36,014 bases of DNA from Bacillota bacterium (GTDB taxonomy: Bacteria; Bacillota; Limnochordia; DTU087): contig DUMM01000099.1 in assembly GCA_012839845.1 (NCBI GenBank), positions 1 through 36,014 on the forward strand. The letters run 5' to 3'. Under the pieces are notes generated by a model. The model was not told where the DNA came from and searched no databases. It saw nothing but the letters and a program-made list of their open reading frames with translations. Positions 4,291 through 24,708 of the stretch are shown here, in pieces. The translations under genes and the position numbers were made by a program. Positions within the stretch are counted from its first letter, which is position 1, and the number at the start of each line of letters is the position of its first letter.

Positions 4291-4791
4291 TCAGTCTATC
4301 TTTAGGTCTCCGTGTTTGGCGACATGGGCCGCCAGACCGCCGTCGGCCAAAAGCCGAATCATTACATCGGGCAGCGGCGGTGCCTGGAGTACTATATCCT
4401 GAGTCTTGTTATAGATCTTGCCGCTGCTCAAGTCAACCTCCAGTTCATCGCCGGCGCTGATCTTGTCAGTATCGCAGATCAAAACCGGCAGTCCTACATT
4501 AATGGCATTGCGGAAAAAGATCCTGGCAAATGACTTGGCCAAAACAGCACTGACACCGGCCATCTTGATAATAGTGGGAGCGTGCTCTCTGCTGGACCCC
4601 AGGCCGAAATTGTTTCCCGCCACGACAAAATCCCCGGGCTGCACCTTAGAGGCAAACTCAGGGTCGGCGTCCTCCAGCACATGCTTGGCCAGCTCCGGCA
4701 GGTTGGAACGGAGGTGAAAGAGCCTCCCCGGAGCAATATGGTCGGTAGAAATATTGTCCCCAAACTTCCAGGCTTTACCTTGCAATCGCAT
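4291..4791 (-). CDS. Aconitase-family dehydratase, small subunit (LeuD/HacB-like)
   Basis: Small swivel subunit of 166 residues, the usual LeuD length. It pairs with the large Fe-S subunit upstream to isomerise a 2- or 3-hydroxy tricarboxylate through dehydration and rehydration. Visible motifs are GDNISTDHIAPGR (11-23), the FGLGSSREHA substrate loop (62-71) and AKSFARIFFRNAINVGLPV. The loop after GR reads LFHLRSN; an Arg in this loop (here R28) is, as I recall, associated with homoaconitase (YLRT type) rather than isopropylmalate isomerase. With the adjacent homocitrate synthase this favours homoaconitase, but isopropylmalate or plain aconitase activity remains possible. The start overlaps the leuC-like stop by 17 bases, typical of coupled subunits. 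Confidence 0.88.
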   Translation of the reverse strand: MRLQGKAWKFGDNISTDHIAPGRLFHLRSNLPELAKHVLEDADPEFASKVQPGDFVVAGNNFGLGSSREHAPTIIKMAGVSAVLAKSFARIFFRNAINVGLPVLICDTDKISAGDELEVDLSSGKIYNKTQDIVLQAPPLPDVMIRLLADGGLAAHVAKHGDLKID

Positions 4792-6046
4792 TGTCCATTA
4801 CCTCCCTGGGATCAGTGATAACACCAGTCAGTGCGCTGGCGGCAGCCGCAGCGGGAGAGCCGAGGTAGATAAATCCTTTGGGATTGCCCAGCCTCCCCTG
4901 GAAATTCCGATTAGACGTATTCAGAGATACTTCGCCGTCGCCTAAGACGCCTTCATGCACTCCAACACAGGGTCCGCAGCCCGGAGCCAGGACTACAGCC
5001 CCGGCAGCCACCAAAGTCTCTATATAACCCAAGCGGATTGCCTCCAAGAAAATCCTGCGGGAGGCGGGGACCACGATGCACCGCACTCCTGAAGCTACCC
5101 TCTTGCCCTTGAGGATCGACGCCGCCACCGCCAGGTCCTCCAGACGGCCGTTGGTGCACGAACCGATGAACACCTGGTCCACTTTGGTGCCCGCCAGTTC
5201 CTTCACCGGATGCACGTTATCCACGGTATGGGGTGCCGCCAGCATAGGCTCCAGCTGGCTGACATCAACAGCAATCACCCGCTCGTAATCGGCGTCGGGG
5301 TCAGCTGACAGCGGACGGTACTCAGCTCCTCGGCCTTGAGATTCTAAATACTCTCGGGTCACTTCATCACTGGCAATTAAGCCCACCTTGGCGCCGGCCT
5401 CCACCGCCATATTGGCCAGTGTCAGCCTTTCGTGCATGGGCATAGCTGCGATAGTCTCGCCGGCAAACTCCAGCGCCTTGTAAGTGGCTCCGTCTGCGCC
5501 CAGCATGCCGATGAGGTGAAGAATCAAGTCCTTGGCACATACGCCGGGCGGCATCTTGCCGGTCACTTCGATCAGGAAGGTCTCAGGCACTCTAAACCAG
5601 GTTTTCCCTAAAGCTATGCCCATTGCCACGTCGGTAGAACCCATGCCGGTGGCAAAGGCGGCCAAAGCGCCCGCGGTACAGGTGTGGGAATCTGCCCCAA
5701 TGATTACCTTGCCGGGGGCGGCGTAATCCTCGGCAACCAGCTGATGGCACACTCCTTCGCCGACATCGGACAGACGGCAGCCGGTTTTTTGCGCGAATTC
5801 CCTCAGCAGTATATGATCGTTGGATAACTCCTTCCGGGGGCTGGGGGCCGCGTGATCAATGAACAGGATGGTGCTTTCCGGGCGGGCTGCCTTCTCCATC
5901 CCGATTTTCCGCAGCTGCTGCACCGCCAGGGGCCCGGTACCGTCTTGGGTGAGAGCTACATCCACTTCACAGACAATGATCTCGCCGGCGCGGACTTCCC
6001 GCCCTACCCGCTGGCTCAGAATCTTTTCAGCCAATGTCAATCCCAT
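4775..6046 (-). CDS. Aconitase-family dehydratase, large subunit (LeuC/HacA-like)
   Basis: Large catalytic subunit of 423 residues carrying the [4Fe-4S] cluster. Cluster ligands are C297 (GSCTNG) and C357/C360 (APGCGPC). Other family motifs are TQDGTGPLAVQ (33-43), DHAAPSP (64-70), GADSHTCTAGAL (118-129) and the final RNFQGRLG. The length and the bacterial/archaeal split-subunit layout match the COG0065 group that mixes isopropylmalate isomerases and homoaconitases. ATG at 6046 is preferred: GGAGG lies nine bases before it, whereas the in-frame ATG at 6055 abuts that site. It is separated from the upstream homocitrate synthase by about 190 bases with a strong hairpin, so it may be partly uncoupled from that gene. 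Confidence 0.9.
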   Translation of the reverse strand: MGLTLAEKILSQRVGREVRAGEIIVCEVDVALTQDGTGPLAVQQLRKIGMEKAARPESTILFIDHAAPSPRKELSNDHILLREFAQKTGCRLSDVGEGVCHQLVAEDYAAPGKVIIGADSHTCTAGALAAFATGMGSTDVAMGIALGKTWFRVPETFLIEVTGKMPPGVCAKDLILHLIGMLGADGATYKALEFAGETIAAMPMHERLTLANMAVEAGAKVGLIASDEVTREYLESQGRGAEYRPLSADPDADYERVIAVDVSQLEPMLAAPHTVDNVHPVKELAGTKVDQVFIGSCTNGRLEDLAVAASILKGKRVASGVRCIVVPASRRIFLEAIRLGYIETLVAAGAVVLAPGCGPCVGVHEGVLGDGEVSLNTSNRNFQGRLGNPKGFIYLGSPAAAAASALTGVITDPREVMDNAIAR

Positions 6047-6164
6047 TCTCGCCATCCTCCTGCCCTCTCTTGGTTTAGTTCCATCCGGGATGGGGAATGC
6101 CTTCCCGCCTCACCCCGTGTACCTTGTATTAACTACCGAATTGTACACAAATCCTCTAAACGCG

Positions 6165-6206
6165 GAAAATCGGCAGCGGACCTGACGAAGTCCGGTGCCG
6201 ATTTTC
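6165..6206 (-). terminator. Strong hairpin between nifV-like and leuC-like genes
   Basis: GAAAATCGGCA (6165-6175) pairs perfectly with TGCCGATTTTC (6196-6206). After one mismatch, 6177-6181 pair with 6190-6194, leaving an eight-base loop. The A-rich and T-rich ends make it a possible bidirectional intrinsic terminator. On the minus strand it sits downstream of the nifV-like stop (6236) and upstream of the leuC-like start. A TACAAT hexamer on the minus strand (6140-6145), just downstream of the hairpin, could be the -10 box of a separate leuCD promoter, though its -35 is poor. The hairpin may instead attenuate read-through. Confidence 0.6.
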
Positions 6207-6235
6207 ACCGTATGTCATCTGATGCTTCCCTCTGC

Positions 6236-7408
6236 TCAGACAGCATCTTTGCCCCGCTTCATTTCCTGCTTGAAATCCTCGTAGATGTAGACCAATTCCT
6301 TATCGAAGAGAGCCCGCTTGAGGGAAACAGCAGTCTCCCTGACTTTGGGAAGCAGCAGCTGGGCTTCCTCCCTAGTGAGACTAATGCCGTACTCCATGAA
6401 CTTGGCCATCAAGGCTTTGGTACCCGAGTGCTTCCCGATGACGATCTGCCGCTGCAAACCTACCTCTTCCGGTGCAAAGACCTCATAGGTGGAGGCGTCT
6501 TTCAGCACGCCGTCGGCATGGATCCCAGACTCATGGGCAAACATATTGGTGCCGACGATGGCCTTCCAGGCCGGCAGTTCTCGGCCGGAAGCCCGGGCCA
6601 CATATTCGCTGGCTTCCCGAAACATATCTGTCTTGAAATTGAGGTCGATCTTGGCTAAGTACTTCAGGGCCATCACCACTTCCTCGAGAGCAGCATTGCC
6701 TGCCCGCTCGCCCAGGCCGTTGATGGTCACCCCGACGAACTTGGCCCCTCCCCGGACGCCTGCTAAGGCATTGGCTGTAGCCATGCCGAAATCGTTGTGG
6801 GTATGCATCTCGATATCGAGACCGGTTGCTTCCCGCAGAATTCGCACGTGTTCGCAGATGGTGAAGGGCTCCATGATACCCACAGTATCACAGTAGCGCA
6901 GGCGGTCAGCTCCGGCATCCCGGGCTTCCTTCCCAAACTTGATCAGAAAGTCCATATCCGACCGGGAGGCATCTTCAGCATTGACCGAAACGTACAAATC
7001 ATGGCGCTTGGCGAAGGCCACCGCTTCGGTCATATGCTTCAGCACCCAATCCCGATCGGTCTGGAGTTTGTGCTTGATGTGGATGTCGGAGGTGGAGATG
7101 GATATCGCCACCGCGTCCACCCCGCACTCCAGGGAGGCTTCTAAGTCTTTAATCACGGCCCGGTTCCAAGCCATGATGCTGGCCCGCAAATTCGCCTTGA
7201 CGATGGCCCTAATGGCTTCCTGCTCATCGCCGCCCATGGCCGGAATCCCAGCTTCTATCTGGTGCACTCCCATTTCATCTAGAAGTTTGGCAATCCGCAC
7301 CTTTTCGTTGTTGGCAAAGACGACACCCGCTGTCTGCTCACCATCCCGCAGAGTGGTGTCCACAATCATCACAGGTGCATGATTCCGTGGATCCGTGAGC
7401 TTTGACAC
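6236..7408 (-). CDS. nifV: Homocitrate synthase, NifV-like
   Basis: Claisen-type synthase of 390 residues, with a DRE-TIM TIM barrel and no C-terminal LeuA regulatory domain. Active-site motifs are DTTLRDGEQTAG (17-28), H202-x-H204 in MHTHNDFG, and NGLGERAGN; GIHADGV and VGLQRQIVIGKHSGT follow. The segment STSDIHIKHKLQTDRDWVL resembles NifV more than isopropylmalate synthase. The expected reaction is acetyl-CoA plus 2-oxoglutarate giving homocitrate. No nif genes are in the window, so a role in nitrogenase cofactor is unproven. A homoaconitase-like pair lies downstream. Re-citrate synthase, a relative, is an alternative. The start is GTG with AGGGGG eight bases upstream. The 162-base gap to gatB holds only a weak promoter candidate. 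Confidence 0.85.
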   Translation of the reverse strand: MSKLTDPRNHAPVMIVDTTLRDGEQTAGVVFANNEKVRIAKLLDEMGVHQIEAGIPAMGGDEQEAIRAIVKANLRASIMAWNRAVIKDLEASLECGVDAVAISISTSDIHIKHKLQTDRDWVLKHMTEAVAFAKRHDLYVSVNAEDASRSDMDFLIKFGKEARDAGADRLRYCDTVGIMEPFTICEHVRILREATGLDIEMHTHNDFGMATANALAGVRGGAKFVGVTINGLGERAGNAALEEVVMALKYLAKIDLNFKTDMFREASEYVARASGRELPAWKAIVGTNMFAHESGIHADGVLKDASTYEVFAPEEVGLQRQIVIGKHSGTKALMAKFMEYGISLTREEAQLLLPKVRETAVSLKRALFDKELVYIYEDFKQEMKRGKDAV

Positions 7409-7570: not shown

Positions 7571-9016
7571 CTAGACTTGGAGTTTCTGGCGGATCAGTTC
7601 ATTTACCTTTTGGGGATTGGCCTTGCCCTGGGAGAGCTTCATCACCTGGCCCACCAAGAAGCCGATGGCCTTAGCCTTACCGCTTTTCACATCGGCCACC
7701 GGACCCGGATTTGCCTCCAGCACCTCAGCGATCATAGCCTCCAGGGCAGAGTCATCGCTGATTTGCCGCAAGCCCTTCTCTTCCACGATTGTCTCCGCGG
7801 ACTTGCCGGTGGCAAACATCTCCTCCAGCACATCCTTGGCCACCAGGTTGCTCACCGCGTTTTCCTGCACCAGCCGCAAGAGGCCTGCTAAATCCTTGGG
7901 CCTGACAGGAGAACTGGCGGCTTCCAGCCCATGGGCCTTAAGCCACCGCTGCACCTCGCCCATAACCCAGTTGCTCACCAGCTTCGGATCATTGACCTCC
8001 TCCACACACTCCTCGAAATAATCGGCTAGATCTCTGCTGCTGGTGAGAATCTCCGCTGCATAAAGGGAAAGATCGTACTGTTCTACGAACCGGTTCCGCC
8101 TGGCATCGGGCAATTCCGGCAGTTCCTCCCTGATAGATTCTACCCAGCTGGGCTCAACCTCCAATGGATAGAGGTTGGGGTCAGGAAAGTACCGGTAATC
8201 GGCGGCCTCTTCCTTGCTCCGCATGGAGAAGGTCACTCCCTGCGTTTCATCCCAGTGGCGGGTTTCCTGCACCACCAACTCCCCTGCTTCCAGCAAGGCT
8301 TTCTGCCGCTCTACCTCAAACTCCAAGGCCCTCTGTACTGCCCTGAAGGAATTCAGGTTCTTGATCTCGCATTTGACTCCGTAGGTACTGCTGCCTTTGG
8401 GTCGGAGGGAAATATTGGCATCACATCTCAGCGAGCCTTCCTCCATTTTGCAGTCGGATACCTCTGCGTACTGCAGCAGCTGCCTGAGCTTTTCCAAAAA
8501 CAGCCGGGCCTCCTCGGGGGAGCGAATATCCGGCTCTGTCACAATCTCGATCAAACCTATCCCCGCCCGGTTGTAGTCCAGAAGGGAATAAGCAGCGCTC
8601 ATAATATCCTCACCAGCGTGGACGGATTTGCCTGCTTCCTCCTCCAGATGTACACGGTTAATGCCGATCCGGCGGACTTTGTCGCCTACCAGCAGTTCTA
8701 CATAGCCGGCGCTGCACAGAGGCAGTTCATGCTGAGATATTTGGTAAGCTTTGCTTAGATCAGGATAAAAATAGTGCTTCCGGGCAAACACGGAAAACTG
8801 GTTGATCCTGCAGTTGAGCGCCAATCCGGCCTTAACGGCCAGTTCCACGGCCCGTCTGTTGAGCAGCGGCAGCGCTCCCGGCAGCCCCAGGCAGATGGGA
8901 CACACCTGGCTATTGGGATCAGCGCCAAATTCCGTACTACATCCGCAGAAAACCTTAGACTTGGTCAACAGCTCCGCATGGACTTCCAAACCGATGACAA
9001 CTTCCCAATCAGCCAT
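7571..9016 (-). CDS. gatB: Asp/Glu-tRNA amidotransferase subunit B
   Basis: GatB of 481 residues, the normal length. It activates Glu-tRNAGln or Asp-tRNAAsn with ATP and receives ammonia from GatA. The N-terminal cradle begins WEVVIGLEVHAELLT; the metal-site Cys of VFCGCSTEFG and VCPICLG are present, as are the PLCSAGYVEL and EIVTEPDIRSPEEA motifs. The C-terminal helical tail (YqeY-like, about 335-481) binds the tRNA elbow. I chose ATG at 9016, which has GGAGG just upstream; an upstream in-frame extension to 9133 runs inside gatA and lacks homology. The start overlaps the gatA stop by eight bases. It is the last gene of ligA-gatC-gatA-gatB. Confidence 0.97.
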   Translation of the reverse strand: MADWEVVIGLEVHAELLTKSKVFCGCSTEFGADPNSQVCPICLGLPGALPLLNRRAVELAVKAGLALNCRINQFSVFARKHYFYPDLSKAYQISQHELPLCSAGYVELLVGDKVRRIGINRVHLEEEAGKSVHAGEDIMSAAYSLLDYNRAGIGLIEIVTEPDIRSPEEARLFLEKLRQLLQYAEVSDCKMEEGSLRCDANISLRPKGSSTYGVKCEIKNLNSFRAVQRALEFEVERQKALLEAGELVVQETRHWDETQGVTFSMRSKEEAADYRYFPDPNLYPLEVEPSWVESIREELPELPDARRNRFVEQYDLSLYAAEILTSSRDLADYFEECVEEVNDPKLVSNWVMGEVQRWLKAHGLEAASSPVRPKDLAGLLRLVQENAVSNLVAKDVLEEMFATGKSAETIVEEKGLRQISDDSALEAMIAEVLEANPGPVADVKSGKAKAIGFLVGQVMKLSQGKANPQKVNELIRQKLQV

Positions 9017-10481
9017 TTTTCTCCACCTCCATCTGCGGCTGCCGAGCCGGCAGACCAGCATGCTGCTCATAGGCGTGTCCAACCCGCAGCACCGTGGGCT
9101 CATCAAAGGGTTTGCCCAAAAACTGCACTCCAACGGGCAGGCCTTCCCCTGTATAACCGCACGGTACAGTCAGAGCCGGTATTCCCGCAAGATTAGCAGT
9201 ACACGTATAAATATCCGATTGATACATAGTAACCGGTGTCTGCGTTCTATGTCCAAAGCCAAAGGCTGCTGTAGGCGTAGTGGGAGAGATCAGCACATCG
9301 CAGCGCTGAAAAGCCTTTTCGAAATCTCCCTTGATCAAAGTCCTGACCTTCAACGCCTTCAGGAAGTACGCTTCGTAGTTCTTCGCCTGCAGGAAATAGG
9401 TCCCCATCAAGACCCGGCGTTTGGCCTCCTGGCCTAGAGCTTGCCTCGTCTTGATGAACATGGAAACCGTATCTTCCGCCTCCGCCCGGTAACCATACCG
9501 CACACCGTCAAACCGAGCCAGATTGGAGCTGATCTCCGCCGAGATAATCACATAGAAGGTGGCCATGGCATACTCGGCGTGGGGCAGGGAAATCTCCTCT
9601 ACCCTGGCCCCCAGGGACTCCAGAAGGTTGGCCGCTCCGAAGACTGCTTCCTTTACCTCAGGATCCAGTTCATCCCCCATGAATTCTTTGGGCAGCCCTA
9701 CGACCAGCCCCTTGATGTTCCCGGTCAAGGCCGCCTCGTAATCAGGGACATCTTTCCTTACCGACGTGGGATCCTTGGGATCCCAACCGGCGATGACTTG
9801 AAGCAGCAAGGCCGCATCCCGCACATCACGGGTTATAGGACCCACGTGATCGAGGGAATCCGCTGCCGCTACTACTCCATAGCGGGATACCAGACCGTAG
9901 GTGGGCTTCAGCCCCACAACCCCACAGAAGGCCGCAGGCTGCCTGATTGAACCGCCAGTATCTGTCCCCAGGGCGGCAGCTGCTTCACCGGCGGCCACCG
10001 CTGCCGCCGAACCGCCGCTTGACCCACCGGGAACCCGTGACAGATCCCACGGATTGCGGGTGCAGCAGAACTGGGAGTTTTCCGTGGACGACCCCAAGCC
10101 AAACTCATCCAAGTTGGTTTTGCCTACCAATACGGCACCGGCCTGCTTGAGCCTGGCTACCGCCTCGGCGTCAAAGGGCGGTATGTAATTCTCCAGCAGG
10201 CGGGAGGCGCAGGTGGTCTGCACTCCGGCGGTGGAGAAATTATCCTTGACAGCGACAGGTATACCGCACAAGGGGGGAGCCTCCCCCGCGGCCAGCATTT
10301 CATCGGCCCTCTGGGCCTGGGCAAAGGCCTCATCTCGACAAAGGGTTATATAGGACCTGATTTGGCTTTCAACTGCATCGATCTTGGCAAAAACCGCTTC
10401 CAGGATCTCCCGGCAACTCACTTCCCCTGCCCTGAGGAGGTCCCGGAGTTGATGAATAGTCATTTCGTTGAGCTGCACCAC
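9009..10481 (-). CDS. gatA: Asp/Glu-tRNA amidotransferase subunit A
   Basis: GatA of 490 residues, an amidase-signature enzyme that hydrolyses glutamine and channels ammonia to GatB. The Ser-cisSer-Lys triad is visible: K79 in VAVKDN, S154 in PGGSSGGS and nucleophile S178 in GTDTGGSIRQPAAF. The IYTCTANLAGIPALTVPCG segment near the C-terminus is also typical. This glutaminase is unrelated to class I amidotransferases, so it appears intact while the class I functions nearby (guaA, his) do not. The start is GTG at 10481 or 10478 (tandem GTG) behind AGGAGG. It lies 47 bases after gatC and overlaps gatB by eight. Confidence 0.97.
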   Translation of the reverse strand: MVQLNEMTIHQLRDLLRAGEVSCREILEAVFAKIDAVESQIRSYITLCRDEAFAQAQRADEMLAAGEAPPLCGIPVAVKDNFSTAGVQTTCASRLLENYIPPFDAEAVARLKQAGAVLVGKTNLDEFGLGSSTENSQFCCTRNPWDLSRVPGGSSGGSAAAVAAGEAAAALGTDTGGSIRQPAAFCGVVGLKPTYGLVSRYGVVAAADSLDHVGPITRDVRDAALLLQVIAGWDPKDPTSVRKDVPDYEAALTGNIKGLVVGLPKEFMGDELDPEVKEAVFGAANLLESLGARVEEISLPHAEYAMATFYVIISAEISSNLARFDGVRYGYRAEAEDTVSMFIKTRQALGQEAKRRVLMGTYFLQAKNYEAYFLKALKVRTLIKGDFEKAFQRCDVLISPTTPTAAFGFGHRTQTPVTMYQSDIYTCTANLAGIPALTVPCGYTGEGLPVGVQFLGKPFDEPTVLRVGHAYEQHAGLPARQPQMEVEKNG

Positions 10482-10528
10482 AATCGCCTCCTGTCTTCAC
10501 CCAGGCTGAACCTGGCACCCAGGATCAG

Positions 10529-10816
10529 CTACTCTTCCTCAATAATCCGGGGAACGCGGAAATAGCCGTCAACCACATCAGGGCCGTTGGCAAAAACCTG
10601 CTCCAAGGGCAGAGAAGGTTCTACAGCATCCTCTCGGAGGAAGCTTTCTTGCCTAATAGGATAATGGGTGGGCGCCGCCGCGTGGGTATCTACTCCATCC
10701 AGGACTCTGATGAGGGATAGAATCTGAGATATTTGCTCCGGGAAAACCTCCTTCTCTTCCTCAGTCAGGCCGATTCGCGCTGTAAATGCAATGGCCTCAA
10801 GTTCCTTCAGCGTCAA
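10529..10816 (-). CDS. gatC: Asp/Glu-tRNA amidotransferase subunit C
   Basis: GatC of 95 residues, the small subunit that wraps round GatA and stabilises GatAB. It shows the family pattern: N-terminal helix with ELEAIAFTARIGLTEEE, a second helix around QISQILSLIRVLDGVDT, then a proline-rich stretch and LREDAV, ending in FRVPRIIEEE. The start is TTG at 10816, behind AGGAG at nine bases; no ATG is available nearby. The gene begins six bases after the ligA stop, so translation is probably coupled to ligase. Confidence 0.95.
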   Translation of the reverse strand: MTLKELEAIAFTARIGLTEEEKEVFPEQISQILSLIRVLDGVDTHAAAPTHYPIRQESFLREDAVEPSLPLEQVFANGPDVVDGYFRVPRIIEEE

Positions 10817-16441: not shown

Positions 16442-17128
16442 CTAGCGTCTGGATTTTAGCTCCGAGAACACTGCTCCTGGGTCGGTCCCCTTTTCCACCA
16501 TCAAGACTATGGTGTGGTAGTACAAATCCGCCAGCTCATAAACCAGCTCTTCCACCCCGGGATTCTTGGCGGCGATGATCACCTCTGCTGCCTCTTCCCC
16601 GATCTTCTTGAGAATCTTGTCCAATCCCTGCGCAAACAGATAGTTGGTGTACGAACCTTCCACGGGATTTGTCCGCCGGTCCTTAACCACCTGATAAAGC
16701 TCGTTGAGAATCCGGGGCGACCTTTTGCCGTAGACTTCCTCGGCATCAAAGGCAGGCTTCGGTTCCTCGTCCTGGGCAGCAGCTGCCGGTCCCTCTTCGC
16801 CCTGCAGCTCTATAGGATTGTGGAAACAAGACCTGTACCCTTCGTGACAGGCCCCCGGCCCCAGCTGTTCTACCTTGATCAGCAGCGCATCGTAATCGCA
16901 GTCGGCAGTAATTTCCTTCACAACTTGGTAGTGGCCGGATGTCTCCCCTTTTTGCCACAGCTGCTGCCGGCTGCGGCTCCAAAACCAGGTCCTGCCGGTC
17001 TGCAGAGTTTTTTCCAAAGCCTCCCGGTTCATATATGCCATCATCAGCACTTCACCGCTCTGAGCATCTTGGATGATGGCCGGAATGAGGCCGCTGGCCC
17101 GGAATTTCAGCTCTCCCATATCCACCAT
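16442..17128 (-). CDS. hisIE: Bifunctional phosphoribosyl-AMP cyclohydrolase / phosphoribosyl-ATP pyrophosphatase
   Basis: Fused histidine enzyme of 228 residues doing steps 2 and 3 of the pathway. The HisI half (about 5-108) has [19 protein letters not shown], the metal-binding DCDYD and zinc-binding Cys in [10 protein letters not shown]. An acidic, alanine-rich linker (about 109-130) leads to the HisE half (about 132-228), a MazG-like fold with [16 protein letters not shown] and ELADLYYH. Both halves look intact. The ATG at 17128 has AGGAGG six bases upstream. It lies 73 bases after hisF and is the last his gene of the run. Confidence 0.96.
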
Positions 17129-17201: not shown

Positions 17202-17966
17202 TCACAGCCGCACAGGGATCCCCGCCGCCTGCAGGTACTGCTTTACCTCCCGAATGGAATATGTGCGAAAATGGAAAAGGGAAGCGGCCAGTACCGCATC
17301 GACTTTGCCCGCTAAAAACGCGTCCCTAAAGTGTTCCAGGCGGCCGGCTCCTCCGGATGCGGTGACGGGAATGGGCACCTTTTCTGCCACCAGGCGGTTC
17401 AGATCGTTATCATATCCGTCCTGGGTGCCGTCGGCATCCATGCTGGTGAGGAGAATCTCTCCAGCTCCCAGAGAATACACCTCTGCGGCCCACCGGCCTA
17501 CCTCCCAACCCGTAGCCGTGGTGCCTCCCCGGGAATAGACCTCCCACCAGGTGCTGCCGTCGGCGTTTTCAGTTCTCTTGGCATCAATGGCGACAATGAT
17601 CCGCTCCCGGCCGAAAGCGCGAGCGGCTTGGGCTACCAGGTCAGGATTCTCCAAAGCCGCGGTATTGATGGAGACTTTGCTGGCTCCCGCTTCAAACATC
17701 GCTTCCATATCCTGCAGGGAGCTGATGCCGCCGCCTACAATCAGAGGAATACTGATGGCCCGGGCAGTGCGGCGAACGCTCTCTGACAGGGCCCGCCGCC
17801 CCTCCTGGGAAGCTGTAATATCCAGAAAGACGAGCTCATCGGCACCCTCTCCATCGTAAAAAGCTGCCTGCTCCACAGGATCACCGGCATCCCGGAAATC
17901 GACGAAATTCACACCTTTGACTACTCGGCCGTCCTTTACATCAAGACACGGGATTACTCTCTTCAT
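17202..17966 (-). CDS. hisF: Imidazole glycerol phosphate synthase, cyclase subunit
   Basis: HisF of 254 residues from ATG at 17966 (GGAG eight bases upstream), the family length. It adds ammonia to PRFAR and closes the imidazole ring, also releasing AICAR. The beta/alpha barrel keeps both catalytic Asp, in CLDVKDGR and AIDAKR. The barrel-gate residues matching T. maritima R5, E46, K99 and E167 are present ([24 protein letters not shown]). The usually conserved Asp of GADKVS, which contacts HisH, is Ser here (S96, codon 17679-17681). No hisH is in the operon. HisF alone works with free ammonia in known cases, so this enzyme may be ammonia-dependent (inference). Confidence 0.96.
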
Positions 17967-18026
17967 CGACCTATCTCCAGTATCCATAGCAGCATTCTCC
18001 CATCTATGCTCAAACCAGAGACACCG

Positions 18027-18773
18027 TCAACTTGCATGATCCGCCGCGGACCTGGCAGCCTCAATGGCTGCCTCCAGAGTGAAGCGGCCGCTGTAGAGCG
18101 CCTTACCGACAATTACCCCTATTATCCCCCGTCCAGCCAGCTTGGCGATGGCCCGGATATCCTCCAGGGCGGCAACTCCGCCGCTGGCGATAACCTTGGC
18201 TCCAGCGCCAGTCATCTTTTCCAATGCCTCGGTGTTCGGACCGGTCAGCATCCCGTCCCGGGCAATATCGGTAAAGATGATCTCCTGTACTCCGAGGTCA
18301 ACCATTCTCCTAGCCAAGTCCAAGGGATCCATTCCACTGCTTTCAACCCAACCCCGAACCGCCACCAGCCCATCCCGGGCATCGATCCCGACGATGATTC
18401 TTCCTGGATGCCGCCGACAGGCAGCTGCCACCAACCCAGGGTTTTCGCAGGCCGCAGTGCCGAGGATCACGTAGCTTGCTCCGGCATCTAGAACCATTTC
18501 AATAGTTTCCAGATCCCGAATACCGCCTCCCACCTCAACGGGCACCGAGACGGCTGCGGCAACAGCCCGGATAACATCCAAATTCCCAGGCCGGCCGGAA
18601 AAGGCTCCATCTAAGTCCACCACATGCAGCCTCTCCGCTCCCGCCTTGGCAAAACCCTCAGCTACCTTTACCGGCTCTCGAGAGTAGATGGTTTCCTGGT
18701 GGCTTTGACCCTGAATTAACCGCACGCAGCACCCCCGCCGCAGGTCAATGGCGGGAATCACCATGAAACTCAA
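18027..18773 (-). CDS. hisA: ProFAR isomerase
   Basis: HisA of 248 residues, a beta/alpha barrel performing the Amadori rearrangement of ProFAR to PRFAR. The two catalytic Asp are in PAIDLRRG and FTDIARDGM, and the phosphate-binding loops are EVGGGIRD and IASGGV. The TTG start at 18773 overlaps the hisB stop in a TTGA arrangement, with AGGAAG upstream; the next ATG is at 18764. The overlap shows that hisB and hisA are directly joined. In many relatives hisH lies between them, and here no space for it remains. Confidence 0.95.
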   Translation of the reverse strand: MSFMVIPAIDLRRGCCVRLIQGQSHQETIYSREPVKVAEGFAKAGAERLHVVDLDGAFSGRPGNLDVIRAVAAAVSVPVEVGGGIRDLETIEMVLDAGASYVILGTAACENPGLVAAACRRHPGRIIVGIDARDGLVAVRGWVESSGMDPLDLARRMVDLGVQEIIFTDIARDGMLTGPNTEALEKMTGAGAKVIASGGVAALEDIRAIAKLAGRGIIGVIVGKALYSGRFTLEAAIEAARSAADHAS

Positions 18774-19357
18774 CCCAATCTTCCTTTCGTAGACAGCTGA
18801 CCCTCCACCCTGGGGTCCAAGGCACAGGCCTGAGCTAGAGCTCTGGCTGCTGCCTTGAAGGCCGCCTCTACCAAGTGATGCATGTTTCCCCCAGCTATCT
18901 CCCGAATATGCAGGGTGATGCCGGCATTAAAGGCTAGAGACCTAAAAAACTCCTCGGCCAGCACAGCGGGAAAAGCACCCAGCATCTCACTGGTCAAATT
19001 CCAGGAAAAGACTGCGCAGGGCCTGCCGCTGATATCCACCGCAGCCATTACCAGCACTTCATCCATGGGGACAAAGGCGTTCCCAAAGCGGGCAATACCT
19101 GATTTGCTGCCCAGGGCTTGGGCAAAGGCCTGGCCCAGGACGATCCCCACATCTTCCACGGTGTGGTGGGCATCTACCTCCAAGTCCCCCCGGGCAAAGA
19201 CCTCAAGATCGAAGAAACCGTGCTTGGCGAAGGCAGTGAGCATGTGATCGAAGAAGCCGATTCCCGTCTCGATGGTGCTCTTTCCCTTGCCGTCTAAATC
19301 CAGCTTCACCCGGATATCTGTCTCTCCGGTGGTCCGGCTGACTTGCCCCATTCTCAT
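18770..19357 (-). CDS. hisB: Imidazoleglycerol-phosphate dehydratase
   Basis: HisB of 195 residues, the monofunctional IGP dehydratase without the phosphatase domain of enterobacterial HisB. The metal-binding His repeats are visible: FFDHML, EVDAHHTVEDVG (first half) and GGNMHHLVEAAFKA (second half), giving the manganese site. The ATG at 19357 has AGGAGG seven bases upstream. It starts 11 bases after the hisD stop and overlaps hisA by four bases. Confidence 0.97.
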   Translation of the reverse strand: MRMGQVSRTTGETDIRVKLDLDGKGKSTIETGIGFFDHMLTAFAKHGFFDLEVFARGDLEVDAHHTVEDVGIVLGQAFAQALGSKSGIARFGNAFVPMDEVLVMAAVDISGRPCAVFSWNLTSEMLGAFPAVLAEEFFRSLAFNAGITLHIREIAGGNMHHLVEAAFKAAARALAQACALDPRVEGQLSTKGRLG

Positions 19358-19368
19358 AGAGCACCCTC

Positions 19369-20724
19369 CTAACTCTCCTGCAGGCGCTCAAGCCTAACCC
19401 GCAGCGCATTGGCGTGGCCGTCCAATCCCTCGATACCAGCCAGCCGCACGGCCTGGGGACCGAGACGGGCTAGTCCCGCTTCCGTATAGCTAATAATACT
19501 GCTGCGCTTGAGGAAATCCTCTGTCCCTAAGGGCGATGAAAACCGGGCTGTCCCGTTGGTGGGCAGCACGTGATTGGGACCAGCGATGTAGTCGCCGATG
19601 GACTCACAGGCAATATGCCCTAGGAATATGGCGCCGGCGTGGCGGATGAGGTGCAGCATCCCAAAGGGATTGGCAACACAGAGTTCCAGATGTTCCGGGG
19701 CTACCACATTGGCCCACCGGGCAGCTTCCTCTATATCCCGGCAAACCAGAATAAATCCATGCCTTTCCACGGACAGCCGGGCGATATCCCTTCGGTCCAG
19801 CTTTTCGAGCTGGGTCAGGACCTCCTCTCGCACCCGCTCTGCCAAATCCTCAGAATCCGTAAGCAGTACAGCCGCCGCCTCCGGATCGTGCTCTGCCTGG
19901 GAAAGGAGATCAGCGGCTACGAAGCGGGGTTCGGCACTTTCATCCGCTAAGACCAGGATTTCACTGGGCCCCGCCAGGCTGTCGATGCCTACCCGTCCGT
20001 AGACCATCTTCTTGGCCAAGGTGACAAAGATGTTTCCTGGTCCCACGATCTTGTCTACAGCAGGGATGGTCTCGGTGCCGTAGGCCAAAGCCGCCACGGC
20101 TTGTGCGCCACCCACTTTCAGCACCCGGTCAACTCCTGCCAAGCGGGCAGCAGCCAGGATATACGGGTTCATCTGACCGCTCACTCCCACCGGAGATGCC
20201 ATGACCACTTCCCCCACCTTGGCCACTTTAGCTGGCACTGCGCACATCAACACCGTGGAAACCAAGGGCGCACTGCCTCCTGGGACGTAAATGGCAACCC
20301 GATCCAAGGGAGTCACTTTCTGTCCCAACACGATGCCGTCATCTTCTACCATCACCCAGGATTGGGGCCGAACCTGGGCATGGTAGCGCCTGATGTTCTC
20401 ACAGGCCGCCTCCAGGGCATCCATCACTTCAGCTGGGACTTGTTCCAGAGCAGCCTCCCACTCCCCTTCGCTGACCCACAGGGTGTCCGGTGTCAGCCGC
20501 GCTCCGTCCAGCTTGGCAGCGTACTCAATCACCGCGGCGTCTCCCCTGGTCCTCACATCCTGCAGGATGCGTGCGACAACTTCCTCCGGACTGAGAGGTG
20601 CTCCCCAGACTGCCTCGGTCCTGGCTTGAAAAGCCGCTGTGACCTCCACTTCATCTACGAAGGGGCGGGTCAAGAGCTCCCGCAGCTCCCCCTCTGTCAA
20701 TTCCCAGCTCCTAAAGATTCTCAT
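19369..20724 (-). CDS. hisD: Histidinol dehydrogenase
   Basis: HisD of 451 residues, doing the last two NAD-linked oxidations, histidinol to histidine. Family motifs include GGAQAVAALAYGTETI, DKIVGPGNIFV, DSLAGPSEILVLAD, zinc-site residues in LLSQAEHDP, VAPEHLEL and GPNHVLPTNGTARFSSPL. ATG at 20724 is preferred: GGGGGGA precedes it by six bases, while an upstream in-frame GTG (20739) overlaps that site. It lies 27 bases after hisG and 11 before hisB. Confidence 0.96.
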   Translation of the reverse strand: MRIFRSWELTEGELRELLTRPFVDEVEVTAAFQARTEAVWGAPLSPEEVVARILQDVRTRGDAAVIEYAAKLDGARLTPDTLWVSEGEWEAALEQVPAEVMDALEAACENIRRYHAQVRPQSWVMVEDDGIVLGQKVTPLDRVAIYVPGGSAPLVSTVLMCAVPAKVAKVGEVVMASPVGVSGQMNPYILAAARLAGVDRVLKVGGAQAVAALAYGTETIPAVDKIVGPGNIFVTLAKKMVYGRVGIDSLAGPSEILVLADESAEPRFVAADLLSQAEHDPEAAAVLLTDSEDLAERVREEVLTQLEKLDRRDIARLSVERHGFILVCRDIEEAARWANVVAPEHLELCVANPFGMLHLIRHAGAIFLGHIACESIGDYIAGPNHVLPTNGTARFSSPLGTEDFLKRSSIISYTEAGLARLGPQAVRLAGIEGLDGHANALRVRLERLQES

Positions 20725-20751
20725 TATGTTTCCCCCCACCCGCGACTTGCT

Positions 20752-21411
20752 TCAATCCACAGGTTTTGCCAGCACTTCCCGCAGCCGCCGCACTAATCCC
20801 TGGATAGTCTGGTATTTCACCTTGCAGCTTACTCGGTTGGCAATCAACCGGGATGTTATCTGAGCTATTTCCGCAATTGGTATCAGCCCGTTCTCCACCA
20901 GGGTAGTACCGGTTTCGGTTATATCCACAATAGCATCGGCTAGCCCCACAATGGGCCCCAATTCTACAGAACCATTGAGGTGCACCACCTCCGCCTGGAT
21001 CCCCTGGCTGCTGAAAAACTCGGTGGTAATCCTCGGAAACTTGGTGGCAACCCGAGAGTTGAAATCCAAATCCTGAACATCCTTAATGCCGGAGGTCTCC
21101 GGCACAGCTACAATCAAGCGGCAGAAGCCAAACCCTAGATCCAGAAGCTCAGCCACATCCTTATGGCTTTCCAGGAGTATATCCTTCCCCACAACTCCCA
21201 AATCCGCAGCTCCGTACTCCACATATGTAGGCACATCCGCCGGTTTTGCCAGGAGAAACCTCCACTCGGTACCTGGGACAGGGATGATGAGTTTTCGGGA
21301 GGGCTCCCGCAGCTCGCTGCAGTCAATCCCGATCTGCTCCAGGAGATCTACTACCGGCTTTTGCAGCCGGCCCTTGGGCAGCGCAATGGTCAGGGGCGCT
21401 GCTTTATCCAC
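20752..21411 (-). CDS. hisG: ATP phosphoribosyltransferase, short catalytic subunit
   Basis: HisG of 219 residues, the short form that lacks the C-terminal ACT-like regulatory domain and therefore needs HisZ. It joins ATP and PRPP in the first committed step. Visible are LTIALPKGRLQ near the start, YGAADLGVVGKDIL, and the PRPP-binding loop DITETGTTLVENGL. The start is GTG at 21411 (AAAGGAGG eight bases upstream) or the preceding TTG at 21414. It overlaps the hisZ stop by eight bases, which fits a fixed HisZ-HisG stoichiometry. Confidence 0.95.
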   Translation of the reverse strand: MDKAAPLTIALPKGRLQKPVVDLLEQIGIDCSELREPSRKLIIPVPGTEWRFLLAKPADVPTYVEYGAADLGVVGKDILLESHKDVAELLDLGFGFCRLIVAVPETSGIKDVQDLDFNSRVATKFPRITTEFFSSQGIQAEVVHLNGSVELGPIVGLADAIVDITETGTTLVENGLIPIAEIAQITSRLIANRVSCKVKYQTIQGLVRRLREVLAKPVD

Positions 21412-22681
21412 CAAACCCCCCTCCTTTCAAAGCCGCGGGAAATCGCTCCAGCTCCTCTTCCCGCCAGCCCACTGCCTCCGTCCAAACCAGGAGCCTATCT
21501 TCTGTAACGGGCTTGATCACCCAGCGAAAGCCGTTGGCTGCGGCGTATCTGAGGCCCTTATCCTCCTCGAGATCATCTACGGCCAGTTCCACTGAAAACC
21601 CCTGCCCCCTCAGCCTTTCTGCCGTCTGCCAGGCTAGATGCGGCCTTTGAGCAAGGCCCAAACAGAGGATCCGCAAATTGGGCCCAGCACTCCAGGCTCC
21701 CTGCCGGGAGAGGACCAGCATGATCCGCTCAATTCCCAAGGCGAAACCGGTGGCCGGGCACCAGTATCCAAACTGCTGGATGAGGTTGTCGTAGCGACCC
21801 CCGGTGCCGATGGCAAAGCCCATATCCGCGGTATAAGCTTCCAGCACCATACCAGTGTAGTACTCAATATCCTTGATCATCCCTAGATCCACCTGCACCC
21901 AATCGGTGAGCCCAAAGGCCTCCAGGGCATCATATATTGCCGTTAGGTTGCTGATGGCCCGCTGGGATATGGGGTTTTTGGCCCGCTCTGCAGCGTTGTG
22001 GAGCACCTCCCGCCCGCCCCGCAGATGAGGCAGGCTGAGTAAGAGCTCCCGGTCATCTTGAGAGAGGTTGTACGCCGCCGTAAGCTCCTCTAGGGCCACA
22101 TAGTCCTTCTTCAACAGGGCTGTGCGCAGGTTCCGCCTCTGCTCAGCCGACAACCCCGAATTCTGCAAAATGCCGTCAAAGTAATCCACGTGCCCAATAT
22201 CCACCAGGAAGTTCTTGAGGCCTACAGCCTTTAGGGCTTCAACGGCTAAGGCAATGACCTCAGCATCGGCCAGAGGACTGCTGCTTCCCACCAGCTCCAC
22301 ACCCGATTGATAGAACTCCCTTCGCCTCCCGGCCTGGGGTTCGGCATACCGGAAGACATTGGCGTGGTAGCAGAGGCGAATTGGCTTAGCAGCACCCCGC
22401 AGCCGGGTGGCTACAACCCTGGCAATGGGAGTAGTCATGTCGGGCCGCAGTGCTAAGATGTCCCCTTCCCTTTCAAAAAAGCGGTAAAGATTCCTGGCCA
22501 ACCCAGCGGCATCTCCGGCGCTTACGGCATCGTAAAACTCCATAGTCGGAGTAACGATCTCCCTATAACCCCACCGCCAGAAAAGGTTCCGCAGGGTTTC
22601 CTCCACCCAGCGCTTCCGCTCTGCATCCCGGGGCAGAAAATCCTCGGTCCCCCGGGGTGTCTGGGTCATGGTATAAGTCAC
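21404..22681 (-). CDS. hisZ: ATP phosphoribosyltransferase regulatory subunit
   Basis: HisZ of 425 residues, a catalytically dead histidyl-tRNA synthetase relative that binds short HisG and carries histidine feedback. It begins TPRGTEDFLPRDAERKRW and has class II synthetase motif 2-like RPDMTTPIARVVATRL and RYAEPQAGRRREFYQSGVEL. HisZ rather than HisS is supported by the EDFLP start, the missing anticodon-binding domain and the overlap with hisG. GTG at 22681 has GGAGG seven bases upstream; an ATG lies four codons later. It starts 25 bases after guaA. Confidence 0.93.
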   Translation of the reverse strand: MTYTMTQTPRGTEDFLPRDAERKRWVEETLRNLFWRWGYREIVTPTMEFYDAVSAGDAAGLARNLYRFFEREGDILALRPDMTTPIARVVATRLRGAAKPIRLCYHANVFRYAEPQAGRRREFYQSGVELVGSSSPLADAEVIALAVEALKAVGLKNFLVDIGHVDYFDGILQNSGLSAEQRRNLRTALLKKDYVALEELTAAYNLSQDDRELLLSLPHLRGGREVLHNAAERAKNPISQRAISNLTAIYDALEAFGLTDWVQVDLGMIKDIEYYTGMVLEAYTADMGFAIGTGGRYDNLIQQFGYWCPATGFALGIERIMLVLSRQGAWSAGPNLRILCLGLAQRPHLAWQTAERLRGQGFSVELAVDDLEEDKGLRYAAANGFRWVIKPVTEDRLLVWTEAVGWREEELERFPAALKGGGFGG

Positions 22682-22706
22682 TGGTCCTCCTCCCTCCCGG
22701 CCGCTC

Positions 22707-24074
22707 TTACTCCCACTCAATGGTGGCCGGCGGTTTGGAACTAATGTCGTAGACTACCCGGGTGATCTCTTTGACTTCCCCCATAATCCGGCTGGAGATC
22801 TTCTCCAGAACGTGATAAGGCAGCTGAACCCAGCTTGCAGTCATACCGTCGACGCTGTTCACGGCCCTGATGGCCAGCACGTAGCCGTAAGTCCGCCGCT
22901 GATCCTGCACGCCGACGGCGCGGGTGTCGGTCAGCACGGCAAAATACTGCCAGATATCCCGCTCCAGGCCCGCCTTCTTGATCTCATCCCGCAGTATGTA
23001 ATCCGCATCTTGCAGAACAGCCACCTTTGCAGGGGTAACCTCCCCAATAACTCTCACCGCCAGACCGGGGCCTGGGAAGGGCTGCCGCCAGACCAGTTCA
23101 TCGGGTAGGCCCAGTATCTGCCCAACCTTTCGCACCTCGTCCTTAAAAAGCCAGCGCAGCGGCTCTAGAAGCCTAAAGTCCATCTTCTCCGGCAGACCTC
23201 CCACATTGTGGTGGGATTTCACCAAAGCCCCCTGACCTGCCCCGCTCTCTACCACATCCGGATACACCGTTCCCTGAACCAGGTAACGTACCTTCCCCAG
23301 TTTCGCCGCTTCTTCTTCGAAGACCCGGATAAACTCGCCTCCGATCCGCTTCCGCTTCTCCTCGGGATCGGTTACGCCCTTAACCTGAGCAAAGAATCGC
23401 TCCTTGGCATCTACAGCGATAAAGCTTTTCCCAAACCGCCGGCGGAAAATATCCGCCACCGTCTCCGCCTCGTACTTGCGCATAAAGCCGTGGTCGACAA
23501 AAATGCATGTCAGCTGGGAGCCAACGGCCTGGTGCACTAATGCTGCAGCAACAGCAGAATCAACTCCGCCGGAAAGTCCGCACACCACCAGTTCCGAACC
23601 CACTTCACTCCTGATCCTCTGGATGCTGGACTCTACAAATGCCTCCATGGTCCAGGTGGGCTCGCACCGGCAGACGCTGCCAACGAAATCCTCCAGCACC
23701 TCTTTACCGGAGGGTTCCGCCAAAGACTCTATCCCGCCCGGAAAGACAGTCACCAGTCCAGCGGCCCTTTGCTCCTCGGCTCGCTCAACCAGCCAGTCAA
23801 ATCCGGAGCCAACTGCCAGCACAGGTATCCCGGCTTCTAACAGCTTCCTGACGGCGCTGTACACTTCCTCCCGGCCTGCCAGATTCCCGTCCTGCTTGCC
23901 GGTCAGAATTACACCCCGGGCACCTTCCTCCAGCACCTCAGCCAGTGATGCTTGAATGGGAAATATTTCGCTGTACACCTGCAGCTTCCGCACTTCCCGG
24001 GCGGCAACATGGCTGCCGTAACCTCCCAAATCCATGACGATGATCCTATTTGCCATCAGGCTGTCCCGTTCCAC
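22707..24074 (-). CDS. guaA: GMP synthase with degenerate glutaminase domain
   Basis: XMP aminase of 455 residues, against about 510-525 for normal GuaA. The ATP pyrophosphatase half is intact: SGGVDS P-loop (168-173), IFVDHGFMRK, HHNVGGLPEKM, and the dimerisation half with RQPFPGPGLAVRVIGE and the C-terminus YDISSKPPATIEWE. The N-terminal class I amidotransferase domain is recognisable (IIVMDLGGYGSHVAAREVRK; GIPVLAVGSGFDWL) but broken. The nucleophilic Cys of GICYGM is G89, the region of the FHPE His and Glu reads FPGGIES, and about 70 residues are missing. The frame is open, so this is not a simple frameshift. The enzyme should need free ammonia or a separate glutaminase. GTG start at 24074 behind AGGAG. 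Confidence 0.95.
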   Translation of the reverse strand: MERDSLMANRIIVMDLGGYGSHVAAREVRKLQVYSEIFPIQASLAEVLEEGARGVILTGKQDGNLAGREEVYSAVRKLLEAGIPVLAVGSGFDWLVERAEEQRAAGLVTVFPGGIESLAEPSGKEVLEDFVGSVCRCEPTWTMEAFVESSIQRIRSEVGSELVVCGLSGGVDSAVAAALVHQAVGSQLTCIFVDHGFMRKYEAETVADIFRRRFGKSFIAVDAKERFFAQVKGVTDPEEKRKRIGGEFIRVFEEEAAKLGKVRYLVQGTVYPDVVESGAGQGALVKSHHNVGGLPEKMDFRLLEPLRWLFKDEVRKVGQILGLPDELVWRQPFPGPGLAVRVIGEVTPAKVAVLQDADYILRDEIKKAGLERDIWQYFAVLTDTRAVGVQDQRRTYGYVLAIRAVNSVDGMTASWVQLPYHVLEKISSRIMGEVKEITRVVYDISSKPPATIEWE

Positions 24075-24116: not shown

Positions 24117-24656
24117 TTACTTCTTATAGATCTCCGGCTTCAAAATGCCGATAAACGGCAGATTTCTGTACTTCTCTGCATAGTCTAAACCGTAGCCCAC
24201 CACGAATTCATCGGGAATCTGGAAACCGTTGTAGTCAGTAGCAATGGGCACAAGCCGTCGGGCCGGCTTATCCAGCAGGGTGGCGATCTTGAGGCTCGCC
24301 GGACGGCGGGCTGACAGGTTGTCCACCAAGTACTTCAGGGTCAAGCCCGAATCCACTATATCCTCCACGATCAGCACGTGGCGGTTGGCAATAGGGGCGT
24401 CTAGATCCTGCAGGATCCGCACTTCGCCTGAGCTCTTGGTGCTGGCACCATAGCTGGAAATAGCCATGAAGTCCATATCCACGGGGATGGTGATGTTCCT
24501 GGAGAGGTCGGCCATGAAGCACAGCGCTCCCTTAAGGATGCAGACCAGCACCAAATCCTTCCCGGCGTAATCCCGGGAGATCTCGGCTCCTAATTCCGAC
24601 ACCCTCTTCTGGATCTGCTCTTCTGTCAGTAGGACCCGATCTATATCCTCTAGCAT
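24117..24656 (-). CDS. hpt: Hypoxanthine(-guanine) phosphoribosyltransferase
   Basis: Purine salvage enzyme of 179 residues that makes IMP or GMP from the base and PRPP. The PRPP-binding motif is VLIVEDIVDSGLTL, with the flexible loop region SSYGASTKSSGEVR, the GALCFMADLSR segment before it, and VGYGLDYAEKYRNLPFIGIL near the end. ATG at 24656 has AGGAGG eight bases upstream; a GTG directly before it is possible. It lies 42 bases before guaA in the same direction, so salvage and GMP synthesis are probably co-expressed, followed by the histidine genes. Confidence 0.96.
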   Translation of the reverse strand: MLEDIDRVLLTEEQIQKRVSELGAEISRDYAGKDLVLVCILKGALCFMADLSRNITIPVDMDFMAISSYGASTKSSGEVRILQDLDAPIANRHVLIVEDIVDSGLTLKYLVDNLSARRPASLKIATLLDKPARRLVPIATDYNGFQIPDEFVVGYGLDYAEKYRNLPFIGILKPEIYKK

Positions 24657-24708
24657 CACTTTTGCCTCCTCATCAACTGTGTCAATTCCCTCTCCTGTCC
24701 TTCAGCTC

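Follow-up and report, generated by a model that had tools for sequence, protein, structure and literature searches.

The 36,014-nucleotide stretch of DNA analysed here (the window) carries a histidine operon from which the gene for the glutaminase subunit HisH appears to have been deleted, with HisF alone continuing histidine synthesis on free ammonia; we put the probability of this reading at about 0.8. According to the proposed mechanism, HisF, with D11, D130 and its ammonia-gate residues, would close the imidazole ring of PRFAR with dissolved ammonia, which would enter the HisF barrel directly and not from HisH and glutamine across the interface. With its partner gone, the HisF docking face would have drifted (D98S, Q123E and C124R), and the change in HisF would be part of a wider shift in the lineage from glutamine to free ammonia, the remaining glutamine, presumably imported, being reserved for GlnRS, PurF, PyrG and GatCAB.

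The histidine operon passes directly from hisB to hisA

The histidine genes occupy the minus strand from 22720 to 16442 in the order hisZ-G-D-B-A-F-IE, and each has an NCBIfam match: hisZ (21404..22720; TIGR00443, 354 bits), the short form of hisG (20752..21414; TIGR00070, 223 bits), hisD (19369..20739; TIGR00069, 543 bits), hisB (18770..19357; NCBIfam HisB models, best 269 bits, with the NF002111 cut-off exceeded), hisA (18027..18773; TIGR00007, 263 bits), hisF (17202..17987; TIGR00735, 351.1 bits against a cut-off of 294.55) and hisIE (16442..17128; NF002747, 268 bits). All seven are full length and syntenic, and in the window's family they are under purifying selection, with dN of 0.04-0.21 and dS of about 0.5-1.5. 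A preliminary description of the window had reported this contiguous run, the absence of hisH and hisC from it and a four-base overlap of hisB and hisA; our searches bear out each of these, the absence of hisC for the window and that of hisH for the whole genome.

At the overlap (18770..18773, minus strand), which is the site of hisH in relatives, the TGA stop of hisB and the TTG start of hisA share the sequence TTGA. Either TTGA or ATGA is found at this junction in six other genomes of the family, preceded by a conserved aaaggaagatt, and the overlap is therefore real and old.

hisH is absent from the genome and its order

The HisH profile (TIGR01855) had no match in the whole assembly to which the window belongs (G000), a draft of 135 contigs rated 100% complete; the same profile matched in 14 of 14 well-known control genomes. 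HisH was likewise missing by profile search from all 11 relatives of the same family or order, each with independent assembly gaps, and HisF was found in 12 of 12 genomes of the order. Most of the genomes compared are draft MAGs, and the profile searches were loose in their first round. In six order genomes, searching with the Pfam GATase model returned only PyrG, a PuuD-like hydrolase (L028/L030) and a remnant in GuaA, described below.

The class shares a syntenic block, hpt-guaA-hisZ-G-D-B-(H)-A-F-IE-pcrA, with hpt (24117..24659, minus strand) as the conserved upstream neighbour. In the class relative G054 (L258), hisH sits exactly between hisB and hisA, whereas in the window's family hisB leads directly to hisA and the slot is empty. 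Empty slots were also found in G018, G020, G041, G042, G045, G048 and G052, which represent six families of the class. Outside the class, hisH follows next after hisB in 28 of the 29 named outgroup loci that extend past hisB (Paenibacillus, Priestia, Hungateiclostridiaceae and others), a Lachnospiraceae MAG being the sole exception. In one out-of-class genome, G153, the interval from hisB to hisA still contains a hisH fossil, about 53 codons long (L307, G153:C228, 7714-7872, minus strand). It reads FVHSHYVDPEDKEIGTATTSYG...VVQFYLEKS; the 5' half has disappeared, and YLEK stands where the catalytic HPEK would be.

Because HisH is missing from the genome and the order, and because the slot is empty relative to the syntenic G054, these comparisons indicate that hisH was deleted in the window's lineage and not relocated. 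The preliminary description had placed hisH between hisB and hisA in many other bacteria, as G054 and the outgroup loci confirm, and had proposed a genome-wide search and a comparison of gene order as the means of telling loss from relocation. The search yielded no intact hisH, the comparison yielded an empty slot, and its reading of a loss is thus supported; the rewriting of HisF, the dead glutaminase of GuaA, the loss of PurQ, GlmS and glutamine synthetase and the recurrence of hisH loss formed no part of that description.

HisF keeps its catalytic core and has a changed docking face

HisF residues are numbered here as in Thermotoga maritima. The window HisF retains D11 and D130, the catalytic residues of the enzyme (PMC11350729), together with the ammonia-gate residues R5, E46, K99 and E167, and D11, D130, K99, E46, D176 and S201 are unchanged in HisFs with and without HisH. 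Within the window's family the dN of HisF is about 0.1 and the dS 0.5-1.0, like those of neighbouring genes; since dN is low relative to dS, HisF is under purifying selection.

Changes appear on the side of the protein that meets HisH. Residue S103 of the window HisF (17679..17681, minus strand) corresponds to T. maritima D98, a lost HisH contact that is Asp in 51 of 51 HisH-bearing genomes. Residues E128-R129 (17601..17606, minus strand) correspond to Q123-A124, beside F120 and near the HisH side; this pair is Q-C in 51 of 51 HisH-bearing genomes, so that positions 123-124 read Q-C in HisH-bearing Firmicutes, Q-A in T. maritima and E-R in the window. In the activated complex fD98 contacts hN12 of HisH, and fF120, which adjoins Q123, is one marker for the subunit angle (PMC8115485); taking that study together with general knowledge of the fold, we infer that positions 123 and 124 face HisH.

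Altogether, the window HisF is changed at 5 of 72 sites whose conservation among HisH-bearing genomes is 97% or more, D98S, Q123E and C124R being among the five. Of 86 HisFs from his operons, all 51 from HisH-bearing genomes have the D98-Q123-C124 triplet intact, whereas only 5 of the 35 from HisH-less genomes do. Independent pairs of genomes that differ in HisH all shift the triplet as expected (6 of 6 on supported branches; sign test, p = 0.031). Losses of conserved sites on HisH-side loops gave Fisher p values of 0.033 for the pooled HisH-less HisFs and 0.1 for the window's family alone, the tree-based pairs and per-genome controls being stronger tests than the pooled one. Of the five HisH-less HisFs with an intact triplet, one belongs to the genome that has the hisH fossil, as would be expected of a docking face that erodes only once hisH is gone. 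These replacements indicate that the HisH-docking face of the window HisF is eroded; as regards a glutamine-dependent IGPS, HisH is not encoded and the docking residues are not conserved in the window.

No obvious gain-of-function residue for the use of NH3 was identified in HisF. An ordinary HisF is a poor user of NH3 at cellular pH, because the T. maritima assay employed 100 mM ammonium at pH 8.5 and because hisH mutants of E. coli and Salmonella are auxotrophs (PMC3896937). Named relatives of the organism come from biogas digesters, and DTU087 from thermophilic manure reactors. Free NH3 is expected to be high in such reactors.

The glutaminase domain of the neighbouring GuaA is dead

Directly upstream of hisZ lies guaA (22707..24074, minus strand), encoding a GMP synthetase that scores 477.8 bits with TIGR00884 against a cut-off of 338.75 and has both the ATP-pyrophosphatase and the C-terminal dimerisation domains (TIGR00884; PF00958). 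Its N-terminal region is 166 residues long versus about 230, and the glutaminase model TIGR00888 reaches only 44.5 bits against a cut-off of 172.15, over residues 11-97 alone. In this remnant (23685..24044, minus strand) the GICYGMQ of intact relatives has become AVGSGFD, with the catalytic Cys replaced by Gly, and the His/Glu half is missing, so that the whole Cys-His-Glu triad is gone. The remnant has a dN of about 0.4-0.5 and the synthetase domain one of 0.06-0.09, so that the former evolves at about five times the rate of the latter. A single-sequence AlphaFold prediction of GuaA gave a poor model, with a mean pLDDT of 43.

Across the class the GuaA glutaminase triad is kept in 16 genomes (in G040 only across an apparent frameshift) and is dead or truncated in the others; several GuaAs carry the Cys to Gly change inside a full-length glutaminase domain. 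Wherever in the class the his operon lacks hisH and the N domain of GuaA could be read, the GuaA glutaminase is dead; the same holds for the HisH-less G094, the sole genome looked at outside the class. Two genomes, G013 and G022, have HisH and a dead GuaA glutaminase, and this combination suggests that the GuaA glutaminase probably decays before hisH is lost. A pair test of GuaA state against HisH on the GuaA tree had too few independent pairs.

Another four genomes with HisH and a dead GuaA (G016, G024, G027 and G030) were rejected as exceptions, their HisH-HisF pairs lying outside the his operon. The HisFs of G016, G024 and G027 carry D130Q (L223, L225 and L226), G030 being outside that comparison. 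Because of this location and the D130Q of three of the HisFs, these stand-alone pairs are probably not IGPS.

Loss of hisH is recurrent among Firmicutes

A sample of the phylum comprised 130 genomes with a completeness of 95% or more; HisF was found in 103, and 21 of these lacked HisH. Isolated proteins resembling HisF2 account for three of the 21; the other 18 of the 103 have a his operon without hisH, and comprise 16 out-of-class genomes (for which mostly his genes were checked), G000 and G020. G075, a single-contig genome, is among the 18. HisH presence switches at least 14 times on a HisF tree built without the interface columns, and at least six on a tree of the GuaA synthetase domain for the class; branch support is moderate, and the counts are therefore approximate. 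Taken together, the trees indicate that hisH has been lost many times independently among Firmicutes. HisFs without HisH in G014, G022, G025, G031, G140, G146 and G173 were excluded from the counts, being isolated and HisF2-like, with R99 and a non-Glu residue at 167.

Other glutamine-dependent enzymes of the family and order

PurQ was absent from 12 of 12 order genomes. PurL and PurF were present in the four genomes checked (G000, G004, G006 and G008), and the G000 operon is purE-purL-purF; its gap contains no ORF for purS or purQ. The roughly 250 bases before purL (L167 6203-6459, G000:C104) contain no ORF; they include an inverted repeat with T's after it (GGGTAGGTT...AACCTACCCGTTTTTTT).

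Profile searches also showed GlmS to be absent from the order and glutamine synthetase, of any PF00120 type, to be absent from all 11 genomes of the window's family (G000-G010); for both, the profiles repeated earlier queries with single E. coli sequences. NagB and glutamate dehydrogenase (GDH) are present, and NagB could run in reverse with NH3. The sister family's G011 has glutamine synthetase; HisH, PurQ and GlmS are missing from it, and the glutaminase of its GuaA is not active. Because G011 has the synthetase yet lacks the glutaminases, this pattern suggests that glutaminase loss preceded loss of glutamine synthetase. Distant single E. coli queries, a weak form of search, found no match in G000 for CarB, TrpE, AsnB, GltB, NadE, AmtB or AsnA.

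The catalytic Cys of PurF and the triad of PyrG are kept, and the window encodes gatC-gatA-gatB (7571-10816, minus strand) with the GatA amidase motif intact (VKDN, GGSSGGSA). With these glutamine sites kept, glutamine is therefore still used and the shift is incomplete. The PyrG motif reads GICLGMHC, versus the usual GICLGMQ, in six of six order genomes (G000:C28 L021; L022-L026), with the Cys, His and Glu kept. G000 encodes a GlnRS (C13:16120-17013, L190) that shares 67% identity with the E. coli enzyme across the compared part, and in each of the seven further order genomes searched a GlnRS is likewise present, with 62-67% identity, beside GatCAB. A GlnRS of this kind is unusual for Firmicutes, and it was possibly acquired horizontally.

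We infer that the organism makes histidine and imports glutamine, and that NH3 is the nitrogen source of HisF, PurL and GuaA in the cell. It seems to us slightly better than an even bet that the family has abandoned glutamine as a nitrogen currency, having no glutamine synthetase and operating HisF, PurL, GuaA and a reversed NagB on ammonia, in which case imported glutamine would serve mainly protein, PurF and PyrG.

Alternative explanations

An intact or divergent HisH might have been relocated within the genome, or missed in an assembly gap. The assembly is a draft of 135 contigs, and relocation does occur, as in G084 of the phylum sample, where HisH and HisF are on different contigs. However, neither G000 nor its 11 order relatives, whose gaps are independent, contain a match, and the GATase search in six genomes found PyrG, PuuD-like and GuaA-remnant sequences only. 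Relocation would moreover leave the docking residues of HisF in place, yet these are eroded in most HisH-less genomes, and we regard it as very improbable. Very unlikely, too, is a supply of ammonia drawn from glutamine by some other glutaminase, for which PdxT and the PuuD-like hydrolase are the candidates. A PuuD-like class I GATase does occur, and PdxT belongs to a Pfam family other than the one covered by the GATase search. Proteins of the PuuD type, however, are catabolic hydrolases that have no synthase docked to them. An enzyme that took over the position of HisH ought also to preserve the interface, which has instead been rewritten, and it would have to work in a family that lacks glutamine synthetase and in which GuaA and PurL have likewise lost their glutaminases.

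The operon might also be decaying, with hisH the first gene to go and histidine auxotrophy to follow, or be retained for AICAR or another side use. HisF is missing altogether from many class genomes, a sign that the pathway is often lost; hisC was not found in the window, and the fossil in G153 displays a pseudogene stage. Against this, purifying selection acts on all seven genes still in the operon, each of which is of full length and in syntenic position, the catalytic residues of HisF are invariant, and the hisH-less state is common to the whole family and to its order sister G011, so that neutral survival of the other his genes for so long is unlikely. We therefore give decay a low probability, and prefer deletion of hisH with HisF working on free ammonia.

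Comparison with known systems

Without HisH, HisF works in vitro on ammonium salts at basic pH (PMC11350729), and one species is known to dispense with hisH: when hisH is deleted, Corynebacterium glutamicum is prototrophic with normal growth, and the HisF of this species complements an E. coli strain that lacks hisH, a result cited as unpublished data in a review whose authors knew in 2013 of no other case in vivo (PMC3896937). The window HisF would be analogous in making histidine alone on ammonia; in C. glutamicum, however, hisH is present and functional and the effect is seen only on deletion, whereas here the loss is natural and the interface is eroded. Compared with the HisF-HisH IGPS, the window is alike in HisF sequence, catalytic residues and operon position and differs in having no HisH and in the replacement of D98, Q123 and C124. 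The glycan amidation proteins HisF2, WbuZ and AglZ are likewise HisF-like barrels without HisH, but the window protein is above the HisF cut-off and below those of WbuZ (252.4 against 299.7) and AglZ (206 against 310).

The window GuaA resembles both the two-domain GuaA and the archaeal two-subunit GMP synthetase in its intact synthetase domain, and differs in its truncated glutaminase remnant without the Cys; the available part of the GMPS review reports that GuaA accepts external NH3 in vitro and describes no such remnant (PMC10526850). The archaeal PurF', which has no catalytic Cys and is proposed to depend on NH3 (PMC3261824), shares the logic of a synthase kept, a glutaminase function lost and free NH3 as the proposed substrate. 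That example concerns one enzyme, whereas in the window's family several amidotransferases are affected together and glutamine synthetase is lost. In the open-access literature C. glutamicum and archaeal PurF' were the only precedents found for a natural HisH-less IGPS, a PurQ-less PurL or a GATase-less GuaA. Open-access papers apparently contain no description of hisH being lost naturally and repeatedly while the docking face erodes, nor, apparently, of hisH loss joined to GuaA decay and the loss of PurQ, GlmS and glutamine synthetase.

IGPS is the textbook example of how ammonia is channelled and of allostery between HisF and HisH. Its repeated uncoupling in nature, still legible in the docking face, amounts to a set of evolutionary experiments on the role of HisH. 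HisH-less lineages offer candidate HisFs that may use NH3 well, and the joint losses, if true, would describe bacteria whose nitrogen metabolism largely bypasses glutamine. GapMind divides IGPS into hisF and hisH (PMC7311316), and the only histidine pathway listed by a reconstruction of 2,856 gut genomes is one that contains HisH (PMC9026213); where HisH is counted as a required step, such lineages may therefore be miscalled histidine auxotrophs.

Elsewhere in the window (4291-7408, minus strand), a homocitrate/isopropylmalate-synthase-like gene matching the NifV model is followed by genes for the large and small subunits of an aconitase-family enzyme. These genes could form a route of the Re-citrate-synthase type to 2-oxoglutarate, or a homocitrate pathway.
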